Shown piece by piece: positions 13,057 to 30,819 of a stretch of DNA of 32,191 nt. The position numbers were made by a program, and so were the translations under genes. Below the pieces are notes generated by a model. The model saw nothing but the letters and a program-made list of their open reading frames with translations. It was not told the origin of the DNA and ran no database searches. Every line of letters starts with the position of its first letter. Within the stretch, counting starts at the first letter, position 1. This DNA is from Alphaproteobacteria bacterium MarineAlpha9_Bin1. GTDB taxonomy: Bacteria > Pseudomonadota > Alphaproteobacteria > TMED109. Location of the stretch: NCBI GenBank assembly GCA_002937675.1, contig PTKJ01000005.1:1-32191 (forward strand), given 5' to 3'.

Positions 13057-13884
13057 TTAAACCACCGAAATATCTGGTGCATCTGGGGATTTCATTCCTA
13101 CAAGATGATAACCACAATCTACATGTAAGACTTCACCAGTAGTCCCGGAAGCTAAATCAGATAATAAAAAAACTGCTGCCTTACCTACATCTTTTAGAGT
13201 TATATTTCGTTTAAGAGGTGCATTATATTCATTCCATTTAAGTATATATCTGAAATCTCCTATCCCTGATGCTGCCAAGGTTCTTATAGGACCAGCAGAA
13301 ATTCCATTAACGCGAATATTATCATTTCCTAGATCTGCTGCTAAATAACGCACGCTAGATTCTAAAGCTGCTTTTGCTACGCCCATAACATTATAGTGGG
13401 GTATAACTTTCTCTGCTCCCATATACGTAAGAGTAATCATACTGCCATTAGGATTCATAATTTTAGATGCTTCTCTGGCGACAGAAGTAAATGAATAACA
13501 CGAAATTTCCATAGTTTTTAAAAAATTATCTTTTGTTGTATCTATATATTTACCTTTAAGCTGCTCTTTGTCAGAAAATGCAATAGCATGAACAAGAAAA
13601 TCTATTTTACCCAAGTTGTTTTTGATTGTGCTAAAAGTTTTTTGGACTGATTTTTCATCAGAAACATCACATTCAAATATAGCAGGAGATTTAATTTTTT
13701 CAGCTAAAGGCTTTACTCTTTTTCCTAGCATTTCCCCTTGATAGGTAAGTATTACCTTCGCACTGTTATCAAATAATTTTTCGGCAATACCCCAGGCTAA
13801 GGATTTATCATTAGCAAGCCCCATAACCACGCCTAATTTATTTTTCATCAGTTCTGTGTTCTTATTATTATTTTTGTCAGTCAT
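13057..13884 (-). CDS. fabI: Enoyl-[acyl-carrier-protein] reductase (NADH), FabI type
   Basis: [21 protein letters not shown]-x6-K motif in [41 protein letters not shown]. Confidence 0.94.
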
Positions 13885-14055
13885 TTTAATCTCATTTGCC
13901 TAAGTTTAAGAACTTGTACAGATATAATATAAAAATAAACTTTTTGTCTTATTTTATAATTGGAATTTTCAAGTTTAATAATAATATATATAATAATTTG
14001 TTCAAAAGTAAGTTATTTTATGAAATAAACTTTCTAAATGTGAGTAGGGCATAAT

Positions 14056-14652
14056 ATGAAAAGTAAACAAAATAAGTTAGATCCTATAAAGATTTTTGAA
14101 AAATGGTATTTGGAAGCTAAAAAATCTGAGCTAAATAATCCTAATGCTTGTTGTTTAGCTACTTCAGATTTAATGGGATATCCTTCAGCAAGAATGATTT
14201 TAGTAAAAAAATTTGATGAAAGAGGCTTTATATTTTACACCAATCTTAATAGTAAGAAGGCTGAAGACTTTAGCAGAAACATAAAAGTCGCGTTGTGTTT
14301 TCATTGGAAGTCTACAGGCAAACAAGTTCGAATAGAGGGTCCTGTAATAGATTTGCCTGATCAAGAAGCTGATGATTATTTTGAATCCAGAGAAAGAGAA
14401 AGCCAAATAGGGTCCTTGGTTAGCAAACAATCAAAACTATTGACTGACGGAATTTCAGGATTAGATAAAGAGTTTATGATAGAGAAAAGAAAACTAGGAA
14501 ATAAAAAAATACTGCGTCCTTCGTTTTGGTCAGGAAAAATAGTTGTACCTGAGAAAATAGAATTTTGGAAATCAAGAAACTACAGGTTACATGAACGAAT
14601 TTTATTCACGGCATTTAATAATGAATGGAAAAAGGAGTACTTATATCCATAA
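14056..14652 (+). CDS. pdxH: Pyridoxamine 5'-phosphate oxidase
   Basis: DPIKIFEKWYLEAKKSELNNPNACCLATSD..PSARMILVKKFDERGFIFYTNLNSKKAEDF..RQVRIEGPV, PSFWSGKIVVPEKIEFWKSRNYRLHERI (divergent toward the extreme C-terminus). Confidence 0.9.
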   Translation: MKSKQNKLDPIKIFEKWYLEAKKSELNNPNACCLATSDLMGYPSARMILVKKFDERGFIFYTNLNSKKAEDFSRNIKVALCFHWKSTGKQVRIEGPVIDLPDQEADDYFESRERESQIGSLVSKQSKLLTDGISGLDKEFMIEKRKLGNKKILRPSFWSGKIVVPEKIEFWKSRNYRLHERILFTAFNNEWKKEYLYP

Positions 14653-14658
14653 ATATGG

Positions 14659-15132
14659 TTATTCTTCGGGATATAAGACTCCAATGGTCTGGGCAATGCA
14701 AGCTGGTCTTTCTTCGTTTTCAATTTCTATAGTCAGCTCATTTTTAATGCGATATCCACTACCTTTAAACTCTTCTACTTCTAGTAATTTATAACTACCT
14801 TTTACTTTAGATCCAGCCTTAACCGGAGATAAAAAACGGACTCTATCAAGTCCATAATTAACGCTGTGTGCAATATTTTTTACCTCATATGTATTGTATC
14901 CCATCCAAGGAGCAAGAGATAGTGTAAGAAATCCATGGGCTATAGTTGTACCAAAAGGGCCTTGCTTAGCTTTAGCCTCATCTAAATGTATCCATTGATA
15001 ATCTTCAGTAGCTTTTGCAAACTCATTTATTCTTTCTTGCGTCACCTCTATCCATGGACTTGTTCCTGTAATTTTGCCAATATAACTTTTTAATTCATCT
15101 ATTGAATTTAAACTTAACATGAAATTCCCCAA
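14659..15132 (-). CDS. MaoC-like (R)-specific dehydratase family protein
   Basis: SPWIEVTQERINEFAKATEDYQWIHLDEAKAKQGPFGTTIAHGFLTLSL (hot-dog fold hydratase motif). Confidence 0.88.
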   Translation of the reverse strand: MGNFMLSLNSIDELKSYIGKITGTSPWIEVTQERINEFAKATEDYQWIHLDEAKAKQGPFGTTIAHGFLTLSLAPWMGYNTYEVKNIAHSVNYGLDRVRFLSPVKAGSKVKGSYKLLEVEEFKGSGYRIKNELTIEIENEERPACIAQTIGVLYPEE

Positions 15133-15217
15133 AAAATATTTCTTACTAATTATTCATGATATATTATAATAACTTAAATTCTATAATTTTTTTGGTAGTT
15201 AAGAGAAGTACAATATT

Positions 15218-15595
15218 TTGTCAAAAAAAGTTAAAAGAAATAAATTAACTAAAGACCAATATATGGTTGCTGTTGAAGGTTCTACTGAAATGCCTTTTTC
15301 TGGTGCTTACAATTATGAAAAACGCCAAGGTGTTTATCTATGTGTATGCTGTGATGAAAAATTATTTGGATCGGACAGCAAATTTAATAGTGATACAGGT
15401 TGGCCCTCTTTTCACTCTACCTTCAAAAAGGGAGCTGTTGTAGAGTACATAGATGAAAGTCACGGAATGATAAGAAAAGAAGCAAGGTGTGGTTCATGTG
15501 ATGCGCATTTAGGACATGTTTTTGATGATGGTCCTAAACCTACTGGTTTAAGATATTGTATTAACTCTGTAGTATTAAATTTTAACCCAGATTAA
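15218..15595 (+). CDS. msrB: Peptide-methionine (R)-S-oxide reductase
   Basis: Two CxxC zinc motifs (CVCCDEKL, CGSCDAHLGHVFDDGP) and catalytic GLRYCINSVVLNF. TTG start. Confidence 0.95.
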   Translation: MSKKVKRNKLTKDQYMVAVEGSTEMPFSGAYNYEKRQGVYLCVCCDEKLFGSDSKFNSDTGWPSFHSTFKKGAVVEYIDESHGMIRKEARCGSCDAHLGHVFDDGPKPTGLRYCINSVVLNFNPD

Positions 15596-19617: not shown

Positions 19618-21024
19618 TTGGTTTTTATGAATACAAATAATTTAATAAAATTCGTCATCAATTTTAGCTTTATTTTTTTTGTTAATATCAGTCTTGTCAA
19701 TTCTGCCAGTTATGAGTTTATTAAACAGAAAATAATTGAACTAAGAGAAGGGGACCTACAAAAACGAATAGAAACAGTTCAAATTTTGGGTTCTCTTTCT
19801 TCTAATGCTAATTTTGCAATTGCAGAGATGATAAACATTTTAAAAAATGATGAAAATCATGAATTAAGAATGCAAGTTATTAGAGCCTTAGAAAGAATAG
19901 GAGGTCAGGCAAATCTTACTGTTCCCGCCTTAATAGAAGCGCTTTCTGATAAGGACTGGCAGATAAGGTGGTCTGCGGCAGGAGCTTTAGAATCATTTGG
20001 TAAGAAAGCAGCAATGGCTGTTCCGGAACTAGTCATACTTTTACGAGATGATGAAAAATTTGTGAGAAATGCAGCTCTGAGTACTTTAGGGAAAATGGGG
20101 TCCATATCTGTATTGGCAATGATGAACGAAGTAGAAAGACCTTTATCTTACTCAGAAAATCAATTAGAGATAAAAATTATGTGCATAAGATCTTTGGGTG
20201 CATTAGGAGCTAGAGCCGTAATCGCTGTTCCTTTATTAATAAAACAAGCACAAAGTGATAATCCGGTGATCCGTAGGGATGCTCTCTACGCTTTAAGAAG
20301 AGTAGGAAGGGGTACTACTTTTCCAGGGCAAATAAGATGGTTAGCAGATCCCGATGAATTAGTTTGGCCTACCACTAGTACTGAAAATAATTCTAGCTTA
20401 GATATAGATTTTACAGAGGCTAAGAAACAAGTTATGGGAGTAATTATAAAAGCTCATTTAGATGCAATATCCGATCCAGATATGGAAGTTCGTTATGCTG
20501 CAGTAAAGGGATTAGCTGATTTTGGATTAGAATCTATGCCTGCAAAAGATAGGTTAATAATTTTTATGTATGACGAAGATCCATTAATTAGAAGAGTTGC
20601 TATAGATGTGTTTGCTTCGATGGGGCCTGATGCAGTTGATGTAATTCCTGATCTAGTAAGTGCACTAGGTGACTTTGATGTAAATGTTCAGTGGTCTGCA
20701 ATACAAGCTCTTCGTTTAATAGGGAAAGAATCAGTGCCAGAGTTAATTTATATGCTAGAATATGATGAAGAAATTATTACGCCAAATATATTACGTACAT
20801 TTGCTGAGCTGGGGCCATTAGCTTCTGATGCAACAGAAGTTCTTTTGGCAAAACTAAAACATACTAACCCAGAGTACAGAGCATTAGCAGCTGAAGCTTT
20901 AGGTGAAATAAGGAATCCGTCAAAAGAAGTTATTCGTTCTCTTAACTTATTATTAACAGATCCTAATAAAAATGTAATGCAATCTGCAAGTTGGTCGTTA
21001 AAAGAATTAGAAAAAATTAATTAA
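19618..21024 (+). CDS. Exported HEAT-repeat protein
   Basis: N-terminal hydrophobic signal, then repeated HEAT/PBS-lyase-like units (e.g. ALSDKDWQIRWSAAGALESFGKKAAMAVPELVILLRDDEKFVRNAALSTLGKMG). The first in-frame ATG of the ORF may not be the true start. Confidence 0.82.
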   Translation: MVFMNTNNLIKFVINFSFIFFVNISLVNSASYEFIKQKIIELREGDLQKRIETVQILGSLSSNANFAIAEMINILKNDENHELRMQVIRALERIGGQANLTVPALIEALSDKDWQIRWSAAGALESFGKKAAMAVPELVILLRDDEKFVRNAALSTLGKMGSISVLAMMNEVERPLSYSENQLEIKIMCIRSLGALGARAVIAVPLLIKQAQSDNPVIRRDALYALRRVGRGTTFPGQIRWLADPDELVWPTTSTENNSSLDIDFTEAKKQVMGVIIKAHLDAISDPDMEVRYAAVKGLADFGLESMPAKDRLIIFMYDEDPLIRRVAIDVFASMGPDAVDVIPDLVSALGDFDVNVQWSAIQALRLIGKESVPELIYMLEYDEEIITPNILRTFAELGPLASDATEVLLAKLKHTNPEYRALAAEALGEIRNPSKEVIRSLNLLLTDPNKNVMQSASWSLKELEKIN

Positions 21025-21038
21025 AAAAGGATTATAGC

Positions 21039-21728
21039 TTGGGTTATATTTCAAAAAACATAATAATATTTATGCTATTTTTGTTTATTAATAAAAACTT
21101 ATTATCGCAAGAGATAAATGTTGATCTAGAACTTGTTCTTGCAGTTGACGTTTCTTCTAGTGTAGATGAAAAAGAATACCAATTACAAGTAAGAGGAATT
21201 GCTGCTGCTTTTAGACATCCAGATGTGGTTTCTGCTATCCAGGCAAGTGGGGAAAATGGAATTGCAGTTGCGATGGTTCAGTGGTCAGATAATGAGGAAC
21301 AAGCTCTTGTAGGAGGGTGGCATGTAATCAGAGATAGTGCCGATGCAGCTGAATATGCTAGAATTATTAGACGTTCTCCAAGGATTATTCCTGGAGGTCA
21401 AACATCTATTGCTGGGGCCTTGTCTTTTGCAATTGATGAAATAGAAAATAATAATATAAATAGTTCTAGAAGAGTAATTGATGTTTCAGGAGATGGGAGG
21501 TCTAATAATGGAATACATCCAATGTCTATTAGGGATAATGCCATAGATAATAATATTACCATTAATGGATTGGTAATATTAAATGAAGAACCATTTTTGG
21601 GAGGATATTTTGAGAGAAGCGTGATAGGAGGTCATGGAGCTTTTATGATGGTAGCCGAGGATTATCGAGACTATGCCGCTATGATATTGCAAAAACTTCT
21701 TAGAGAAATAGGACTTCCGGTAAGCTAA
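21039..21728 (+). CDS. DUF1194 family (von Willebrand factor A-like) exported protein
   Basis: VDLELVLAVDVSSSVDEKEYQLQVRGIAAAFRHPDV..VAMVQWS, GGQTSIAGALSFAIDEI, VIDVSGDGRSNNG. MIDAS-like DxSxS, T and D are all present. TTG start, 14 bp after the HEAT-repeat gene. Confidence 0.85.
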   Translation: MGYISKNIIIFMLFLFINKNLLSQEINVDLELVLAVDVSSSVDEKEYQLQVRGIAAAFRHPDVVSAIQASGENGIAVAMVQWSDNEEQALVGGWHVIRDSADAAEYARIIRRSPRIIPGGQTSIAGALSFAIDEIENNNINSSRRVIDVSGDGRSNNGIHPMSIRDNAIDNNITINGLVILNEEPFLGGYFERSVIGGHGAFMMVAEDYRDYAAMILQKLLREIGLPVS

Positions 21729-21773: not shown

Positions 21774-22235
21774 TTAAGGATATACCCCATACTCGAATTT
21801 ACTACCTGCCGCTTTTCTGTCTTTATATTCTTGACGTAAATAGGCAATAATTTTCCAAATATTTTCATCGGATATGGTCCTAGAGAAAGCACCCATTTGT
21901 GTTGGCTGGCCATTTACCTGTAACCCTGAAGCTATAACTGAATAAAGATTTATATTAGAACCCCCGCTTTTTTTATAATAACCTCTTGTCAGAGGTGGAC
22001 CTTTTGCTCCTACTCCTCTCATTCCATGACAATAAGAGCAACGTTGATTAAATTTTTCATAGCCTTCTGCTATGGCTTCAGCATTGCCTTCAAACGGGTT
22101 TTCCACATCATCTTCTCCTCCATAGTCTTGGACTTTACCTGCAGATAATGCAGGTGATAAGTAGAAATTGCTAGTAAAGGTTGTTCCTATTATCACAAAA
22201 AAAGTTATAAAAAATATATTTTTAATTAAACCCAT
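21774..22235 (-). CDS. xoxG: Cytochrome c associated with PQQ methanol dehydrogenase (XoxG/cL-like)
   Basis: Signal peptide, CSYCHG haem motif, MRGVGAKGPPLTRGYYKKSGG..GQPTQMGAFSRTISDENIWKIIAYLR. Located downstream of xoxF and xoxJ. Confidence 0.85.
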   Translation of the reverse strand: MGLIKNIFFITFFVIIGTTFTSNFYLSPALSAGKVQDYGGEDDVENPFEGNAEAIAEGYEKFNQRCSYCHGMRGVGAKGPPLTRGYYKKSGGSNINLYSVIASGLQVNGQPTQMGAFSRTISDENIWKIIAYLRQEYKDRKAAGSKFEYGVYP

Positions 22236-22262: not shown

Positions 22263-23138
22263 TTAGTCTTTCGCTGTGTATGAGGAACCAACTTTATCAA
22301 AAGGTTTAAAATAAGGAATATTATACTTTTCAACTATCTCCTGCAGAGTTCCATTTTCGATAAGTATTTTTAAATTTTTATTTATCATGTCTTTGAACTC
22401 TTTGTCTTTAGGCAGCACACCAGCAATATTCCATCTCAATTCTGTAGGTGGCTCAAAAGACTTAATTACTCTAAAAGGAGCATCTTTATATTTTCTTCTA
22501 GCTTTTGCAACTTGAGTAGACATAACAAAGGCTATAGAAATTTCCTGAGTAGCTACACCATCAATTTCTGTAGGTTTTCTAGACCACAAATCACGGTCAT
22601 AGCCATTATAAAAAAAATACCCATCTATTGCCGTGGACATTGCTACACCAGGCTTATATTTCCCTTTAATTTCTTCTATCTTAATAAAATCTGGAACATC
22701 TGGATTTGCTATTGGAATGTAGGCTACTCCCATATAGGGTATAGTATATTCAAGATTTTTCTCTTCGATTTCTTCTTCCATGCTATCACTGGTGGTAATT
22801 CCCATATACAAATGGCAACGTCCTTTGCTTATTGAATGACGAAGAGCTTTTCCTAAACCCCCTCGCATTTTTTGTTCTGCCCAGTAAATATCTAAATACA
22901 AATCTTCATTAGCAGCAATTCTTTCGATAATTTCTATATCAAATCCTCTTGGGTAATTAGCGGAAGAAGTATAAGGCCATGCGTACGGACCTGCACATAA
23001 AATTAACTTGTGTGTTTCCTGTATTTTATCCAATAGTTCTCCAGCGAAAACCCTTTTATAATCCATTGAAAATAATTGTAGTATAAACGCAGTTGCTATA
23101 ACAAAAAGACTAAAAACTCTCATCTTCAATTGCTCCAC
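22263..23138 (-). CDS. xoxJ: XoxJ-like quinoprotein dehydrogenase-associated periplasmic binding protein
   Basis: Periplasmic SBP fold (LILCAGPYAWPYTSSANYPRGFDIEIIERIAANEDLYLDIYWAEQKMRGGLGKALRHSISKGRCHLYMGI) between xoxF and xoxG. Confidence 0.85.
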   Translation of the reverse strand: MEQLKMRVFSLFVIATAFILQLFSMDYKRVFAGELLDKIQETHKLILCAGPYAWPYTSSANYPRGFDIEIIERIAANEDLYLDIYWAEQKMRGGLGKALRHSISKGRCHLYMGITTSDSMEEEIEEKNLEYTIPYMGVAYIPIANPDVPDFIKIEEIKGKYKPGVAMSTAIDGYFFYNGYDRDLWSRKPTEIDGVATQEISIAFVMSTQVAKARRKYKDAPFRVIKSFEPPTELRWNIAGVLPKDKEFKDMINKNLKILIENGTLQEIVEKYNIPYFKPFDKVGSSYTAKD

Positions 23139-23197: not shown

Positions 23198-23221
23198 GGG
23201 AAGGTGGATTTCCACCTTCCC
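23198..23221 (-). terminator. Strong GC-rich hairpin (terminator or attenuator) immediately downstream of xoxF
   Basis: GGGAAGGTGG-attt-CCACCTTCCC perfect 10-bp stem, followed on the minus strand by TTTTAATTT. Confidence 0.75.
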
Positions 23222-23250: not shown

Positions 23251-24978
23251 TTAGTTTAATCCAAAAGTAAATACGCCACCACCTTTGGTGTGTTTTTTAA
23301 GCCATTCGCCATAACTTAGAGGCCATATTCCACCGCCACCAGCACCTACTACGACAGACACTTGTTGTTGTCCATCAACAGTGTAAGTTGTTGGGTTTCC
23401 GTGTACGCCTGTACCTACGTTGAACTGGAATAGTTCTTCACCGGTATCGTCACGTACTGCATGGAAATAACCTTCAGCGTCACCATAAAACACCAATCCA
23501 CCAGCTGTACATAGTGTACCACCAGTAGCTGGAGTGCTATGTGGACGAATCCACATTAGATCACCATTTGATGCGTTAAAGGCTTTAATAGATCCATTAC
23601 CTGAGTTAAAGGTAATAACTTTAGCACCTAGGTACCATTCACCACGGCGCCATTCCATTTTCTTCGCTTGGAGATCCATGGAGAAGTTATATAATGGAAC
23701 AACAGCTGCGTTTACACGTGGAGAATAACACATTGGATGCCATTCTTTACCACCATCAAGTGATGGATAAATATTTTTAGTTACACGATCGTAAACAACA
23801 TCCATTGCTGGATCACCACCTTCTTCCCAAGCCATAATTGGACGACAATTGTCGCGGAATCCAGGTGTCCAATTGATTCTACCCATTGCAACAACCCAGT
23901 TACAACGTGAGTTTGTACGATCAATTGAGTACAAGTGACCATTACGATCACCATGTAACCAAACTTTCTTACCATCAATATCAGCAAGGATAACTTCGTT
24001 TACACCGTCATAGTCATATGGATCGTTTGGTGTATACTGGAACCAACTTACGATAGCACCATCATTAGGATTTAATACTAAAGTTGAGTTTGAGTATAGA
24101 TTGTCACCTAAACGAACGTGACGATCAAAGTCGGGTCCAGGGTTACCGATTGGCCAATAAAGCAAGTCTAAATCTTTATCGTATGAACCAGTTATCCATC
24201 CAGAACCACCACCGTATTTCCAAGACTCTCCAGCCCAGGTGTCTACGTTTGGCTCACCTTCAGCTGGAATTGTGTATGTATTCCATATAACACTTCCATC
24301 TTCAGCTGATAATTTACGTACCCAACCACGAACACCATATTCAGCACCAGCGGTTCCTTGAATTAGGCCGCCATCAAGTGCCATAGGCATAATAGTTGAA
24401 GTTTCCGCGTATGTGTAGTCACCTACAGCTACGTCGAATAGAACTTCACCACTGTGGTTAGCAAGACGTACCAAGTGTGAATCTAGAGTTGCTAAGTATA
24501 CGCTATCTCCATATGGAGTAGCTCCACGGTTAACAACGTCACAGCAAAGTTCTGGATAAACGTCAGCTGGTAGCTCACGCTCATATTTCCATATAATGTC
24601 GCCTGAAGCTGTGTCCACAGAAATCACACGGTTAAATGATGTGGTGACATAACCTTGTCCTCCAACAACATTCAACTGACTGTCTTGACCTTCAAGGGTA
24701 CCAAATGACAGATACCATTTAGCTACTAGATCTCCCGCATTACCTTGGTTGATTTGAGAAGCTTGATGATAACGAGTTGATTGGTAATCTTTACCATAAT
24801 GCAACCAGTTCATTGGATCCTTGTCTGCATTTAAAAGCATGTCATCTGTTACATAGTGAGGTTGCGCACCGCCACCTCCTCTAAGAACATCAACACCCTG
24901 CGCAAAAGCGCCTGATACCATGCTTAGTGTAGCTGCAAATACCACAGCTACGAAGCCATATTTCAATATCTTTGACAT
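23251..24978 (-). CDS. xoxF: Lanthanide-type PQQ-dependent methanol/alcohol dehydrogenase (XoxF)
   Basis: PQQ beta-propeller motifs, adjacent Cys pair (ELCCDVVNRG), catalytic-Asp region DPYDYDGVNE with a second Asp at +2 (the XoxF Ln-coordination signature). Start reset to ATG 24978 (MSKILKYGFVAVVF signal peptide) with GGGAGG upstream. Confidence 0.93.
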   Translation of the reverse strand: MSKILKYGFVAVVFAATLSMVSGAFAQGVDVLRGGGGAQPHYVTDDMLLNADKDPMNWLHYGKDYQSTRYHQASQINQGNAGDLVAKWYLSFGTLEGQDSQLNVVGGQGYVTTSFNRVISVDTASGDIIWKYERELPADVYPELCCDVVNRGATPYGDSVYLATLDSHLVRLANHSGEVLFDVAVGDYTYAETSTIMPMALDGGLIQGTAGAEYGVRGWVRKLSAEDGSVIWNTYTIPAEGEPNVDTWAGESWKYGGGSGWITGSYDKDLDLLYWPIGNPGPDFDRHVRLGDNLYSNSTLVLNPNDGAIVSWFQYTPNDPYDYDGVNEVILADIDGKKVWLHGDRNGHLYSIDRTNSRCNWVVAMGRINWTPGFRDNCRPIMAWEEGGDPAMDVVYDRVTKNIYPSLDGGKEWHPMCYSPRVNAAVVPLYNFSMDLQAKKMEWRRGEWYLGAKVITFNSGNGSIKAFNASNGDLMWIRPHSTPATGGTLCTAGGLVFYGDAEGYFHAVRDDTGEELFQFNVGTGVHGNPTTYTVDGQQQVSVVVGAGGGGIWPLSYGEWLKKHTKGGGVFTFGLN

Positions 24979-25024
24979 ATGGGCATTCCTCCCGTTTTTA
25001 ATTTTTACATAACTTAAAATAAAG

Positions 25025-25078
25025 CTAAGTGTAAAAATAACATTAATGTTATATCGTTCAAGGATGAACGACACTTAG
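25025..25078 (-). promoter_or_regulatory. Nested inverted-repeat element in the xoxF leader (possible three-way-junction RNA or multi-operator site)
   Basis: Outer arms CTAAGTGT (25025-25032) / ACACTTAG (25071-25078) enclose the 14-bp palindrome TAACATTAATGTTA (25038-25051) and the hairpin CGTTCA-AGGA-TGAACG (25055-25070). Confidence 0.55.
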
Positions 25079-25208: not shown

Positions 25209-27413
25209 CTATACATTTAACGAATTTTTAAACACAAGTGGGGGGCATTTTTTATTGTCATAATAGTCTAGTTCGCAATCAAGGCATTGAAAACACTCAT
25301 TCATATTTATTTTTCCTTTGGTATCTATAGCCTGGACAGGACAAGATTTTTCACATAAATGGCAGGGATTTCCACATTCTGGTCTCCTGGGAATCATATT
25401 GAATATATGGAAGCGTCCTAGAAAAGCTAAGGCAGCACCTAGAGGACACATAAAACGACAGAAAAAACGCTCGGAAAAAATTCCGATAAACACAAGTATT
25501 GAAGCATATAAAACGTAAGGTAGGCTTCTATTAAAATATGAAGTAATGGCTGTTTTAAAAGGCTCTATTTCAATTAAACCGTAAGAATAACTACTTCCTA
25601 AAATTGTTGTGCAAGCTATTGCCATAAGAATAATGTATTTTATCACCCATAGTCTTTCATTTAGCCAGTATGGAATATCAATAGTTGGTAATTTAATGAT
25701 TTTTCCTAATTTAAAACACAATTCTTGAAGCACACCAAATGGACATAGCCACCCACAATATACACCTCTTCCTAATAAAATTAGGGAAACTAGTGTATAG
25801 ATAAAAATTATGACCATTAATGGCTCAAATAAAAATTGTGTAAATCCTTTTCCTAAAACTAATGCTTGTGCATAAGATATGATATTAACTATGCTTAGTT
25901 GGGACTGGGCAATCCAGCCTATCCAAGTTAATGTAATAGTCAAAAAACCTAATCTTATATAACTATGGATTTTTCTATTAGAAGAAAGTTTTTTTTGAAA
26001 TCCTAGAATTAAAGTTAATATAATAAGGAGAAAACATAAAAATATTATGGAATAGTCCTGATTTGCCCATTCCGATTGCCATCCATTTAATTTACTTTCT
26101 CTAACAAGTCCCAAAAAAGCAGTTTCAATTTGTCTCAATCCAGCATCTTCTAATGCTACAGGGTCTCCTGTTATTAATTCTTTAGGTAAAACATAATTTA
26201 GAGAAAAAATTCCACTAGCAAAGCTTTCATTAACGGAAAATTCTAACGTCCATTTTTCTAGAGGATTAAATCCCCATTCCTTTGGAATACGCAACAAACC
26301 TATCGATGAAACATTAGGTTTATTTGCTATTCTGAGAGCAGTAGACTGTAATGTTTCATTTTGACTAAATTTAAATACCTTATCTTTTTGAATTAATTGA
26401 ATACGACTGTATTGATTTTTTTTCCATGACCATAAACCTGATCCCATTACGACTAATAAATTGTCGCCAGTTGCTATCTGCGAAACATGATAAGAATACC
26501 ATTTGTCGCCAAAAATATTTCTTCCTACAGATGCTGGATTAGCTAATCCTGCATAAATATTTATAAATTTTTTATCGGGGTCTTTTAAATAATCTTCGTT
26601 TTCCGGGTTTAACTTTTTTCTAATTTCTTTTTTAGTAAAGGTTTTGCCTACTACCCCTCCCCAATTTACTAATGCAGGCCAGTCACGTTCTTTATAGTTA
26701 TCGACATCAAGATAAAATGGTCCTTCATTAGAGGCTAAACCAGTTTGGCGTAAAACTTTTTTTGCAGCGGTAATAATACCATTAGTTGTAAGAGTTGCAC
26801 TAATAGTTGCTCCCGTTACTCCATCATAACCTCTTCCACCGCCAGTACCTGAGTTTAAATTTACTCTTCTATTAATATTAGTACCTACGAATGTTTCGTG
26901 AAGAGCTTCTAGTAATGTTTGAGGTACACAAGTTGGACAAATCATGGGTTCATGAAGTTCTAATATAACGGATCCTGCTAATCTTCCATCTGGCTTTAAT
27001 CCAACAATAATATCAAAATGATCTCCTGAATATCCTTTAGCCTTTGTCGTTTCATAAGTTGAAAATAAGAAACCAATTTCCTTTTGGGTTCCTTTCGTTT
27101 GAAGAGCTGTAATTTTTTCTGCCGTTTCAGCTTCAGTCGGCTCTCGAGCGTAAACTTGTAAAAATTCAATTCTCCATTTGGCAAGTAGTTTTTCATCTAT
27201 AGTTGTTTTTTCTGCAGCAGTACCTAATACTGGAATGTATGGAGGATTTCCTTGAGGGGATCCCAGAGCTTCTGCTTGCGGAAAAATTTTAGCAACAATT
27301 CCAGGGTTTATTCTACTTTGAAGAGGATCGTTCATATCAGCATATGTAACTTTTATTAAAAATATTAAAGATAAAAGAAAAACCCCAAATATTTTTAATA
27401 ACAACTGTTTCAT
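25209..27413 (-). CDS. NosR/NirI-like membrane flavoprotein-polyferredoxin (FMN-binding domain + TM + [4Fe-4S])
   Basis: Flavinylation-type motif YDGVTGATISAT, GVYCGWLCPFG and FFCRFMCPLG (Cx3CP), ferredoxin-like CGNPCHLCEKSCPVQAI and CFQCLDCELDYYDNKKCPP. Confidence 0.88.
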   Translation of the reverse strand: MKQLLLKIFGVFLLSLIFLIKVTYADMNDPLQSRINPGIVAKIFPQAEALGSPQGNPPYIPVLGTAAEKTTIDEKLLAKWRIEFLQVYAREPTEAETAEKITALQTKGTQKEIGFLFSTYETTKAKGYSGDHFDIIVGLKPDGRLAGSVILELHEPMICPTCVPQTLLEALHETFVGTNINRRVNLNSGTGGGRGYDGVTGATISATLTTNGIITAAKKVLRQTGLASNEGPFYLDVDNYKERDWPALVNWGGVVGKTFTKKEIRKKLNPENEDYLKDPDKKFINIYAGLANPASVGRNIFGDKWYSYHVSQIATGDNLLVVMGSGLWSWKKNQYSRIQLIQKDKVFKFSQNETLQSTALRIANKPNVSSIGLLRIPKEWGFNPLEKWTLEFSVNESFASGIFSLNYVLPKELITGDPVALEDAGLRQIETAFLGLVRESKLNGWQSEWANQDYSIIFLCFLLIILTLILGFQKKLSSNRKIHSYIRLGFLTITLTWIGWIAQSQLSIVNIISYAQALVLGKGFTQFLFEPLMVIIFIYTLVSLILLGRGVYCGWLCPFGVLQELCFKLGKIIKLPTIDIPYWLNERLWVIKYIILMAIACTTILGSSYSYGLIEIEPFKTAITSYFNRSLPYVLYASILVFIGIFSERFFCRFMCPLGAALAFLGRFHIFNMIPRRPECGNPCHLCEKSCPVQAIDTKGKINMNECFQCLDCELDYYDNKKCPPLVFKNSLNV

Positions 27414-29446
27414 ATTAAGCTTTTTTCAGAAATAAAGGCATCTCTTATTGAATTCTTTTGTTTTTTATTATTACATTTAATATTTTTATCATTATAAACT
27501 ATCTGACAAGATAAACATTGGATGCATTCTTTTTTATTTATAGAACCATTCTTTGCAATAGCTTTAGTAGGACATTTAGGTAAACATGCATTACATGATT
27601 CGGATCCGCAGGATTTTACTGTGGTTAACCAATTAATAACTTGAAATTGGCTTGCTAATCCTAATGCAGCACCAGTTGGACAAAGATATCTACAAAAACC
27701 TCGTTCAACAAAAACAACAAATGATAGTATTGCAAGTGACCATAAAATAAAAATAATGGATCTATCAAATTTATATTCTATGACTGTTTTAAAAGGTTCA
27801 AATTCAAAAAATATGTTATTCCCTGTTGTATAAATAGCACTCAAAATAATGGAACCTAATATTACATATTTTAAGTATATTAATTTACTATGGACATAGT
27901 TAGGTATTTCAAAACTCTTAAATTTTAAGGCCTTAGAAATTTTATGTATTAAGTCCTGAATTGTTCCAAATGGACACAACCACCCGCAAAAAATACCTCT
28001 TCCCCAAATGGGAGTTGTAATTATTATAAAAGTTCCTAAAATTATATATATAGGTTCAAATAATATGTTATCCCACATACCGTTATCCAGTTTAAAAGTA
28101 TTATACGATTGATAAATTTTTTGCGTTCCTATTTGCAGGCTTTGAAATACACCGAACCAAAGGAATATAATTCCGGTAAGGAAAATTTTAATATATGTTA
28201 TTTTTTTTCTATATTGAGTAAGTTTTCTAGCAAATAAAGTAATTGTTAGAATTCCTAGTAAAAGCAAACTAGTAAAAAATATAGCGTATTTTTGATGTAT
28301 CCATTCTCTCCACCAATCAGGTCCCCATGCATCTATAAAGCCACTCTTATTAGGCATAATTATATTTGTGAGTGTTTTAGCATTAATATTATCAGTTTTG
28401 TTTATTATTTTATTTGTATAAAGGACGTAAGCTGTAACAGCATATGCTTCGTCATTAGTGAGAGATTGTGGTTCAAAGTATGGCATTGCTCTTCGAATGT
28501 AATCAAATAAAGTTGTGGCATAAGGCCAAAAAGACCCAACAGTTCTTACAGGAATTTCTGTATTTAAAGTGCCTAATCCACCAGATAGAGATTCAAAAGC
28601 TATAATTTTTACTGCATTTGATGTTCCTCTAAAGCTCTCGATCTCGCTTGAAAGTACTTCTGCTTTTCCCTGTGTTCCATGACAAGATAGGCACCGTTCT
28701 TGATATACTTTTTCTCCTATTTCAGCTGTGCCATTTCCTTCAGGTAGGTTCTTACTTGTTGGGCTTATTGAAATGTCTTCTGCAATAATTTTTTTCTCTA
28801 TATAGTCCTTACTTAAACTATTATTATACCAATTTATTTTTTCATTTTGTTTGTTTAATAATTTGGATAGTTTAAAAAATAATGAAGAAGTTTTATGATT
28901 TGAAGAATTAATAATAGTATCTTTTTCTGTATTCCAATTAGCAAGGAAAGTATCTTTGGAAGCGGAATTAATATTTAATAAAGATACTTTATCTAATTTT
29001 TCATCAAAATTTAATATATTATTTTTATAAAGTAAGAAGGCTGTTAAAGCATATGTTTCATTACTGGTTAATGTTTGTGGAGTGTTGTAAGGCATAGTCT
29101 TTCTAATATAATCATATAAAGTTTTAGGATAAGGCCAATCTAAGTTAATTGGTACAGAATTAATATTATCCTTTTCTATTATTTTTGTTTGATTAAAAAA
29201 ATCTTTCTCTGAATGGCATGACACACATTTATTTATAAAAATTTTTTCACCTACTTCAGCGTTGCCTGCGCCATCAGGTAAGTTTGACCCCACAGCATCT
29301 ATAGTAATATCTAATTTTGAAATTATATTCTGGCCAATATTTTTACCAAAATTAAAATCTACATGTTCTTCTGCTTGTACTGCTGATATAAAAAATAAGT
29401 TAGTAAAAATTATTAAAAAAGTTAGGTATTTTTCAAACATATTCAT
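27410..29446 (-). CDS. Fusion: tandem SoxD-like cytochrome c domains + NosR-type membrane polyferredoxin
   Basis: Two similar haem domains (NLPDGAGNAEVGEKIFINKCVSCHS..WPYPKTLYDYIRKTMPY and NLPEGNGTAEIGEKVYQERCLSCHG..WPYATTLFDYIRRAMPY), then TMs, RGIFCGWLCPFG, GFCRYLCPTG, CGSESCNACLPKCPTKAI, CIQCLSC. ATGA overlap with the downstream NosR-like gene. Confidence 0.85.
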   Translation of the reverse strand: MNMFEKYLTFLIIFTNLFFISAVQAEEHVDFNFGKNIGQNIISKLDITIDAVGSNLPDGAGNAEVGEKIFINKCVSCHSEKDFFNQTKIIEKDNINSVPINLDWPYPKTLYDYIRKTMPYNTPQTLTSNETYALTAFLLYKNNILNFDEKLDKVSLLNINSASKDTFLANWNTEKDTIINSSNHKTSSLFFKLSKLLNKQNEKINWYNNSLSKDYIEKKIIAEDISISPTSKNLPEGNGTAEIGEKVYQERCLSCHGTQGKAEVLSSEIESFRGTSNAVKIIAFESLSGGLGTLNTEIPVRTVGSFWPYATTLFDYIRRAMPYFEPQSLTNDEAYAVTAYVLYTNKIINKTDNINAKTLTNIIMPNKSGFIDAWGPDWWREWIHQKYAIFFTSLLLLGILTITLFARKLTQYRKKITYIKIFLTGIIFLWFGVFQSLQIGTQKIYQSYNTFKLDNGMWDNILFEPIYIILGTFIIITTPIWGRGIFCGWLCPFGTIQDLIHKISKALKFKSFEIPNYVHSKLIYLKYVILGSIILSAIYTTGNNIFFEFEPFKTVIEYKFDRSIIFILWSLAILSFVVFVERGFCRYLCPTGAALGLASQFQVINWLTTVKSCGSESCNACLPKCPTKAIAKNGSINKKECIQCLSCQIVYNDKNIKCNNKKQKNSIRDAFISEKSLI

Positions 29447-29496: not shown

Positions 29497-30819
29497 TTAT
29501 TTCTCAGACCAAGTAGAACTTTGAGCAACATCATCATACTCATTTAATATTTTGCCTTTAGCAGTTATTCTCCAAATCTGTATAGAATTGTTATGATATA
29601 AATGTCCTAAACCATATTTTACAGACCAAATAGACCTTTGAGGTTGTGTATTACTCTTACTATCTGTCGCTCTACTTTGTAGTGAGCATTCTTCCCCATT
29701 CCACATCCAGTTATAGCGAAATCTGACCGGAGATAAAGGCTGGTTACTTCCCTCTATTTTTGCAATATTCCAAGTTTTGCCTTTATCGGTAGAAACCTCC
29801 ACTTTTTTAATATTTCCAAGACCTGACCATGCAAGACCCGTAATATGAACAGGTCCTTTCTTTAGGGGAACTGGACCGGCTGTTGGATGAGTAATTACTG
29901 ATTTTACTTCCATCGGAAAGGTAAATTGCAATGTTTTTCCGTTCGTTAGTAAGTCACTATATTTAGAAGTTTCATCTTTAGTATATGTAGGTTTTTTTGT
30001 TACCTTTATTCTTCTTAGCCACTTAATACTTATGTTTCCTTCCCACCCAGGAACAACTAGTCTCATAGGGTATCCTTGCTCAGGTCTTATGCGTTCACCA
30101 TTCTGGTATAATGCTATTAGCGTATCATCTAGTGCTTTTTCCAAAGGTATACTTCGACTCATAGCAGAAGCGTCGGATCCCTCAGCAAGTATCCATTTTG
30201 CCTCTTTCTTTATACCTACTTCGTTTAAAATTATTTTTAGAGGAATACCCGTCCATTCAGAGGTTGACATAAGTCCATGAATTGTTCCGCAGGTTCTATC
30301 TATAGCTATAGGAAAAGCGTTAGAATTATAAAAACTATTTCCAGCACATTCTATAAAATAAGTTTTAGTTTTCATTGGATATTTTAAAAGATCTTCCGTT
30401 TTAAATACTAATGGTCTTTCAACAAGTCCATGAATGAGTAATTCGTGTTGTAACGGGTCTATAGCTGGAATTCCATTATGACTTCTTTCAAAATGCAACC
30501 CATTGGGAGTTATGATTCCTTCAAGCTTTTCTAAGGGAGTCATAGACGCTCCTGTCCCTGGTGCATATTCTTTATATGGCTGAAATATTTTTCGTTTTGT
30601 GTTTACTTCCTGTTGTGCAGGGACCCCGTATTCACTGAAAGTTTTACCAGGAGTAGTCATCCAGGAAGGAGACCCCTCTTTTATAGATTCTGCATTTATA
30701 GAAGCTGGTATAAGACTAGCTGCGGAAGAGAATAATAAAGTTCTCCTGGAGATTTCTATTTTGTTTTTAAAAAAAAAATTACTCTGCTGCTTTTTCATCT
30801 TTTTCATGAAGCTTTCCAT
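29497..30819 (-). CDS. soxC: SoxC-like molybdopterin sulfite dehydrogenase subunit (Tat-exported)
   Basis: Twin-arginine SRRTLLFSSAASL, Mo-cofactor Cys in YFIECAGNS, WTGIPLKIIL, EGSDASAMSRSIPLEKALDDTLIALYQNGERIRPEQGYPMRLVVPGWEGNISIKWLRRI, C-terminal dimerisation domain. Exact start uncertain (30819, 30807 or 30798). Confidence 0.9.
   Translation of the reverse strand: MESFMKKMKKQQSNFFFKNKIEISRRTLLFSSAASLIPASINAESIKEGSPSWMTTPGKTFSEYGVPAQQEVNTKRKIFQPYKEYAPGTGASMTPLEKLEGIITPNGLHFERSHNGIPAIDPLQHELLIHGLVERPLVFKTEDLLKYPMKTKTYFIECAGNSFYNSNAFPIAIDRTCGTIHGLMSTSEWTGIPLKIILNEVGIKKEAKWILAEGSDASAMSRSIPLEKALDDTLIALYQNGERIRPEQGYPMRLVVPGWEGNISIKWLRRIKVTKKPTYTKDETSKYSDLLTNGKTLQFTFPMEVKSVITHPTAGPVPLKKGPVHITGLAWSGLGNIKKVEVSTDKGKTWNIAKIEGSNQPLSPVRFRYNWMWNGEECSLQSRATDSKSNTQPQRSIWSVKYGLGHLYHNNSIQIWRITAKGKILNEYDDVAQSSTWSEK

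Follow-up and report, generated by a model that had tools for sequence, protein, structure and literature searches.

What would two adjacent NosR-type polyferredoxins do beside a gene for sulfur oxidation? This question is raised by a 32,191-nucleotide stretch of DNA (the window) from Alphaproteobacteria bacterium MarineAlpha9_Bin1 (GCA_002937675.1, contig PTKJ01000005.1, positions 1 to 32,191), in which two genes, P0001 and P0002, lie on the minus strand between soxC and a gene for a XoxF-type pyrroloquinoline quinone (PQQ) dehydrogenase; neither nosZ nor nirS occurs at the locus, although nosZ was not searched for in the rest of the genome. The source genome (1.42 Mb in 115 contigs) has TMED109, a low-GC marine order, among its near relatives. 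In the reading to which we give a probability of about 0.6, P0002 serves as this locus's SoxD and carries, in fusion, a flavin-less polyferredoxin of the NosR type, and it would act with SoxC and P0001 in one membrane molybdo-heme-iron-sulfur-flavin complex that passes its electrons most likely to the quinone pool. The arrangement at the locus is genuine and conserved. Its parts are known, their combination appears not to have been described before, and it amounts to a variant of the SoxCD and NosR-type systems; literature searches returned no report of SoxC together with NosR.

A SoxD fused to a membrane polyferredoxin

P0002 (27410 to 29446) encodes a signal peptide, two SoxD-type c-heme domains, and the membrane polyferredoxin half of a NosR-type protein, and P0001 (25209 to 27413) encodes a full-length NosR-like membrane protein with a flavin mononucleotide (FMN) domain and 4Fe-4S clusters. 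As the original prediction had proposed for these two open reading frames, only their C-terminal halves are homologous (BLASTP, 36% identity over 294 residues, E of 1e-57, a similarity well outside what chance would give), and the motifs that it quoted are present in the translations. The NCBIfam NosR model (NF046105) aligns nearly along its whole length with P0001 (87 to 730, 499 bits), whereas in P0002 it covers the last 285 residues (376 to 660, model positions 391 to 673, 218 bits); both scores are below the equivalog cutoff of 1000. The polyferredoxin half of P0002 (27470 to 28315, minus strand) has transmembrane helices, two CX3CP motifs, and eight cysteines for two 4Fe-4S clusters, and all of the cluster cysteines are likewise present in that of P0001 (25239 to 26081, minus strand).

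The N-termini differ, also as predicted. That of P0001 is of the NosR type and carries the sequence DGVTGATIS at residue 197, including a flavinylation motif (DGVTGAT; 26805 to 26825, minus strand) with a predicted threonine acceptor (T203). The Pfam FMN_bind model alone is below its threshold here (15.9 versus 22 bits). The suggested search for apbE was successful, with two ApbE hits in the source genome (214 and 89 bits), one of which adjoins another NosR paralogue; together with the Dxx[ST]GAT-type motif, this predicts that P0001 is flavinylated. P0001 has all of the features of the broad NosR/NirI superfamily (an FMN_bind-like domain with flavinylation motif, a CX3CP transmembrane core, and two 4Fe-4S clusters). 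It differs from NosR and NirI in its low score against the equivalog model, in its neighbors, and in belonging to a clade separate from the nosZ- and nirS-linked members. P0002 has only the membrane and iron-sulfur part, and it carries heme where FMN would be.

The heme motifs of P0002 are CVSCH at residue 74 and CLSCH at residue 252, each with an RxMPY methionine downstream. The second domain (28334 to 28801, minus strand) is common to all relatives, and residues 211 to 371 match Paracoccus SoxD (2xts_B; phmmer, 1.5e-24), which was the sole solved relative found. The first domain (28943 to 29335, minus strand) is divergent, scores 137 bits with the SoxD hidden Markov model, forms a separate clade (support of 100/100), and is found only in the window and in one other genome (G012, contig C7, locus L114). 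Tandem heme is thus a local trait, with one SoxD domain in most relatives.

Directly upstream of P0002, across a gap of 50 nucleotides, is soxC (29497 to 30819, minus strand), a member of the molybdenum-cofactor sulfite/sulfane dehydrogenase family that scores above the TIGR04555 equivalog cutoff (519 versus 420 bits). Its product has a twin-arginine signal (SRRTLLFSS) and a predicted molybdenum-ligand cysteine in YFIECAGN. Since all of the 38 SoxC loci read for comparison across the class encode SoxD directly after soxC, we read P0002, which occupies that place, as SoxD itself. This resembles SoxCD of Paracoccus pantotrophus (PDB 2XTS), in which the homologous heme domain also follows soxC. 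It is unlike that system in that the window's SoxD is membrane-bound: it ends in the transmembrane segments of a NosR-type polyferredoxin and has an FMN-polyferredoxin as its partner. The original prediction overlooked soxC on one side of the pair and the xoxF block on the other, as well as the local nature of the tandem heme. Its observation of an ATGA overlap between the P0002 stop and the P0001 start (27410 to 27413, minus strand; ATA TGA / ATG AAA) holds, and this overlap could possibly couple translation of the two genes.

Conservation and natural fusion of the pair

The order was sampled with 28 genomes, 12 of which have a true SoxC (G000, the source genome; G008; G012 to G014; and G021 to G027), and the SoxD-polyferredoxin sequence is found in exactly the same 12. 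A XoxF orthologue is present in 14 genomes. In three of these 14 (G001, G011, and G012), the contig stops short; in 11 of the 11 loci in which the 5' side of xoxF is on the contig, genes for the NosR-like protein, the SoxD-polyferredoxin, and SoxC lie there in that order. The pair therefore co-occurs in related genomes, as the original prediction required, and, in this order, the SoxC/P0002/P0001 unit is co-inherited with the XoxF-type dehydrogenase.

In genus g8, both polyferredoxin matches are within one open frame of 1171 to 1290 residues in all seven genomes. The fused protein at locus L035 (1164 amino acids) consists of a SoxD domain with one heme, a polyferredoxin, an FMN domain (DGVRGATIS), and a second polyferredoxin, with identities of 42% to P0002 and 48% to P0001. 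No other observation speaks as strongly for joint action of the P0001 and P0002 products as this natural fusion, which strongly supports a heteromeric unit. Chance adjacency is ruled out by the 11 conserved loci and the seven fusions. The earlier proposal of a heterodimer with FMN and heme arms is therefore upheld insofar as the two proteins appear to act as a unit, whereas its heme arm is better read as SoxD.

In genus g6, three P0002 orthologues (L003, L004, and L044) retain both CX3CP motifs and have four rather than eight C-terminal ferredoxin cysteines, unlike the P0001 orthologues of that genus, which keep all cluster cysteines. The clusters of P0002 are thus decaying in this one genus, and their loss argues against an obligatory route through P0002 to a soluble cytoplasmic partner.

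SoxC-linked polyferredoxins outside the order

No SoxD joined to a polyferredoxin was found beyond this order's family among 289 genomes of the class (at a strict threshold) or 399 genomes of the phylum. A search for the NosR-like proteins that are closest to P0001 outside the order pointed to the alphaproteobacterial family f125, in which a NosR-like protein (NosR2) precedes soxC and an unfused, mono-heme soxD in six of nine genomes, one contig ending within soxC. The flavinylation site has been lost from every one of these six NosR2 proteins (e.g., HVRLGDSS and YGGRADIS). Four of the genomes encode a further NosR-like protein (NosR1) ahead of NosR2, and it retains the flavin site in the three that are readable in that region (SVSGATIS and AISGATVS). 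The SoxC proteins of f125 and of the window's family (f1) are sister clades (100/98), both within a branch that has no SoxYZ neighbors. A flavin-bearing and a flavin-less polyferredoxin beside SoxC and SoxD are thus a shared theme.

In the 38 comparison loci, where SoxC either stands alone or belongs to a Sox cluster, no polyferredoxin is encoded nearby (4-kb flanks where contigs allowed). The window's locus resembles stand-alone pairs of SoxC and a mono-heme cytochrome (e.g., in Paraburkholderia) in lacking SoxYZ genes within 4 kb, as surveyed across the class, and in its SoxD-type partner, and differs from them in its polyferredoxins. More distant matches (L100 to L110) are of the NosR type, several of them followed by a Tat-exported NosZ-looking protein, and were set aside as not relevant.

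Origin of the pair

P0001 orthologues form one clade spanning genera (99/95), as do the SoxD-polyferredoxins (99/97), which indicates that the pair is old; a recent, lineage-specific duplication is ruled out, since both halves are older than the genus split. The suggested tree of the C-terminal halves thus resolves each as an old clade, but it does not place P0002, whose polyferredoxin half has a very long branch and shifts position when either half of its clade is dropped. Approximately unbiased tests retained P0002 both as sister to P0001 (P of 0.16 to 0.22) and as sister to NosR2 (P of 0.17 to 0.35), and the trees favor neither. The original prediction of tandem duplication followed by domain replacement is therefore not established, its sister relation being neither supported nor rejected. 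A tree constrained to join P0001 with NosR1 of f125 (g201) has a likelihood equal to or above that of the free tree. Judged from gene order and from the loss of the flavin site in NosR2 of f125, fusion of SoxD onto a NosR2-like protein may be the more economical account and fits better than an N-terminal swap in a duplicate.

Electron flow and alternative roles

In this family, SoxC is known to pass its electrons to SoxD. In the proposed mechanism, SoxC, exported by the twin-arginine translocation (Tat) pathway, would oxidize a periplasmic sulfur compound, which may be sulfite or else sulfane sulfur bound to a carrier or thiol. From molybdenum, the electrons would reach the SoxD heme or hemes and would then enter the membrane by way of the iron-sulfur cores (CX3CP) and the FMN bound covalently to P0001. 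The textbook acceptor for sulfite and sulfane dehydrogenases is soluble cytochrome c; here, the exit would most likely be the quinone pool instead. The data show what the parts are by sequence, that their linkage is conserved, and that they occur fused; from this we infer the physical complex, its substrate, its acceptor, and the direction of flow. The combination of SoxD on a membrane iron-sulfur core, an FMN partner, and ApbE genes favors periplasmic sulfur oxidation with entry of electrons into the membrane.

Several observations weigh against this scheme. NosR itself is thought to send electrons outward to its reductase, so that direction is not readable from the family. The long branch of P0002 leaves its orthology to NosR2 unproven, and two f125 members have no NosR1 beside the module. 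Structural models made for P0001 and P0002 with AlphaFold2 (on six-row alignments) were uninformative, with predicted local distance difference test (pLDDT) scores of 30 to 31. Finally, the linkage to xoxF may point to a different main client.

The best surviving alternative, although an unlikely one, follows from this last point: the pair may serve XoxF, with electrons of the PQQ dehydrogenase entering the chain via the FMN-polyferredoxin. The xoxF block adjoins the pair in all 11 readable loci, and an analogous route has been proposed for flavinylated NapH-like proteins encoded beside exaA, which would receive the electrons of alcohol oxidation; such clusters were found in 172 genomes (Meheust et al. 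2021, PMC8238504). Those systems likewise combine an FMN domain and a PF12801 membrane iron-sulfur protein beside a PQQ dehydrogenase, but a second polyferredoxin that lacks flavin and bears SoxD is a novelty of the present locus, and the word "sulfite" is absent from the main text of that paper. The alternative is weakened by f125, where this SoxC-linked module occurs with no XoxF next to it, and by the locus having its own XoxG-like cytochrome. Furthermore, the exclusive link to the SoxD-polyferredoxin is that of SoxC and not that of XoxF.

It is less probable still that the locus encodes an ordinary SoxCD of the thiosulfate-oxidizing Sox pathway, simply anchored to the membrane. The source genome does contain a soxX-soxY-soxZ-soxA cluster (contig C29, 6137 to 8400; L084), and its SoxZ scores above the cutoff. 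However, this cluster lacks soxB, and SoxB is above its cutoff in none of the 28 genomes of the order, a further difference from the Paracoccus system. SoxY is found in 25 genomes, 13 of which have no SoxC; these 13, together with the missing SoxB, make the canonical thiosulfate pathway unlikely. In addition, SoxY of the source genome is below its cutoff (91 versus 125) and ends in IGACS instead of the GGCGG arm, and the window's SoxC falls in a branch without SoxYZ neighbors (100/99).

At a similarly low probability, XoxF may be a ThdT-like thiol transferase and SoxCD may oxidize the resulting sulfur adduct, by analogy with tetrathionate oxidation in Advenella. The presence of soxC, soxD, and xoxF in one locus would suit this role. 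Cooperation of Sox and Xox proteins on tetrathionate has been published (Pyne et al. 2018, to the extent that it is cited in PMC12542740), and ThdT acting with SoxB, SoxCD, and SorAB is summarized in PMC10301885. The missing SoxB again argues against it, and the DYD motif of XoxF and its Xox neighbors fit an ordinary lanthanide-dependent alcohol dehydrogenase. An equally doubtful reverse flow, in which quinol or a cytoplasmic reductant would be pushed outward via P0001 and P0002 to SoxC as a reductase, conflicts with the score of SoxC as a dehydrogenase equivalog and with SoxD taking electrons from SoxC in all cases known to us. In its favor, NosR and PceC-type relatives feed periplasmic reductases (PMC8238504).

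Neighboring genes and other relatives in the genome

Downstream of P0001 lie genes for the XoxF-type dehydrogenase (23251 to 25074; adjacent CC pair and lanthanide-type DYD motif; TIGR03075, 489.8 bits versus a cutoff of 480), a XoxJ-like periplasmic binding protein (22263 to 23138; TIGR03871, 33 bits), and a XoxG-like monoheme cytochrome c (21774 to 22235; TIGR03872, 44.7 bits), all on the minus strand. The block has the features of a XoxF methanol dehydrogenase, although the two neighbors score under their own cutoffs. Between xoxF and xoxJ, a strong 10-bp stem with a T-rich tail (23198 to 23221, minus strand) is probably a terminator, which would separate xoxF from xoxJ-xoxG. Genes for a HEAT-repeat protein and a DUF1194/VWA protein (19618 to 21728, plus strand) converge with the end of xoxG and have the same position in nearly every relative, GC-rich genomes included.

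Elsewhere in the source genome, a SoxYZ-like fused carrier is encoded beside a SoxH-like metallohydrolase (contig C94, about 13423 to 15254; L085, 8424 to 10255). These two are near the "quinoprotein relay" families TIGR04557 and TIGR04558 while scoring under the cutoffs (131.6 versus 140 and 216 versus 300 bits), families that others have connected with PQQ dehydrogenases bearing a pair of adjacent cysteines (PMC12997753). The 1.4-Mb genome also contains four more NosR-like paralogues (C34, 5845 to 7893; C43, 4816 to 7062; C83, 27207 to 29510; and C91, 1 to 2547). One adjoins ApbE, one follows an ATP-binding cassette (ABC) transporter set, and one follows an acyl-coenzyme A (CoA)-synthetase-like gene; none of the four has nosZ beside it.

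Implications

We propose tentatively, at somewhat less than even odds, that SoxC and SoxD wired to a module of heme-bearing and FMN-bearing polyferredoxins represent a new type of sulfur-oxidizing respiratory complex in marine Alphaproteobacteria, one that delivers electrons directly to quinone and has a genetic link to methanol oxidation of the lanthanide type. If so, periplasmic sulfur oxidation would have a different electron exit and flavinylated polyferredoxins would have a new client. SoxD is here joined to a NosR-type protein, with the whole chain naturally fused in one genus and unfused in another family. Sulfur oxidation would be tied to XoxF in a marine lineage, and the locus offers a test case for transmembrane electron movement by NosR-type proteins.

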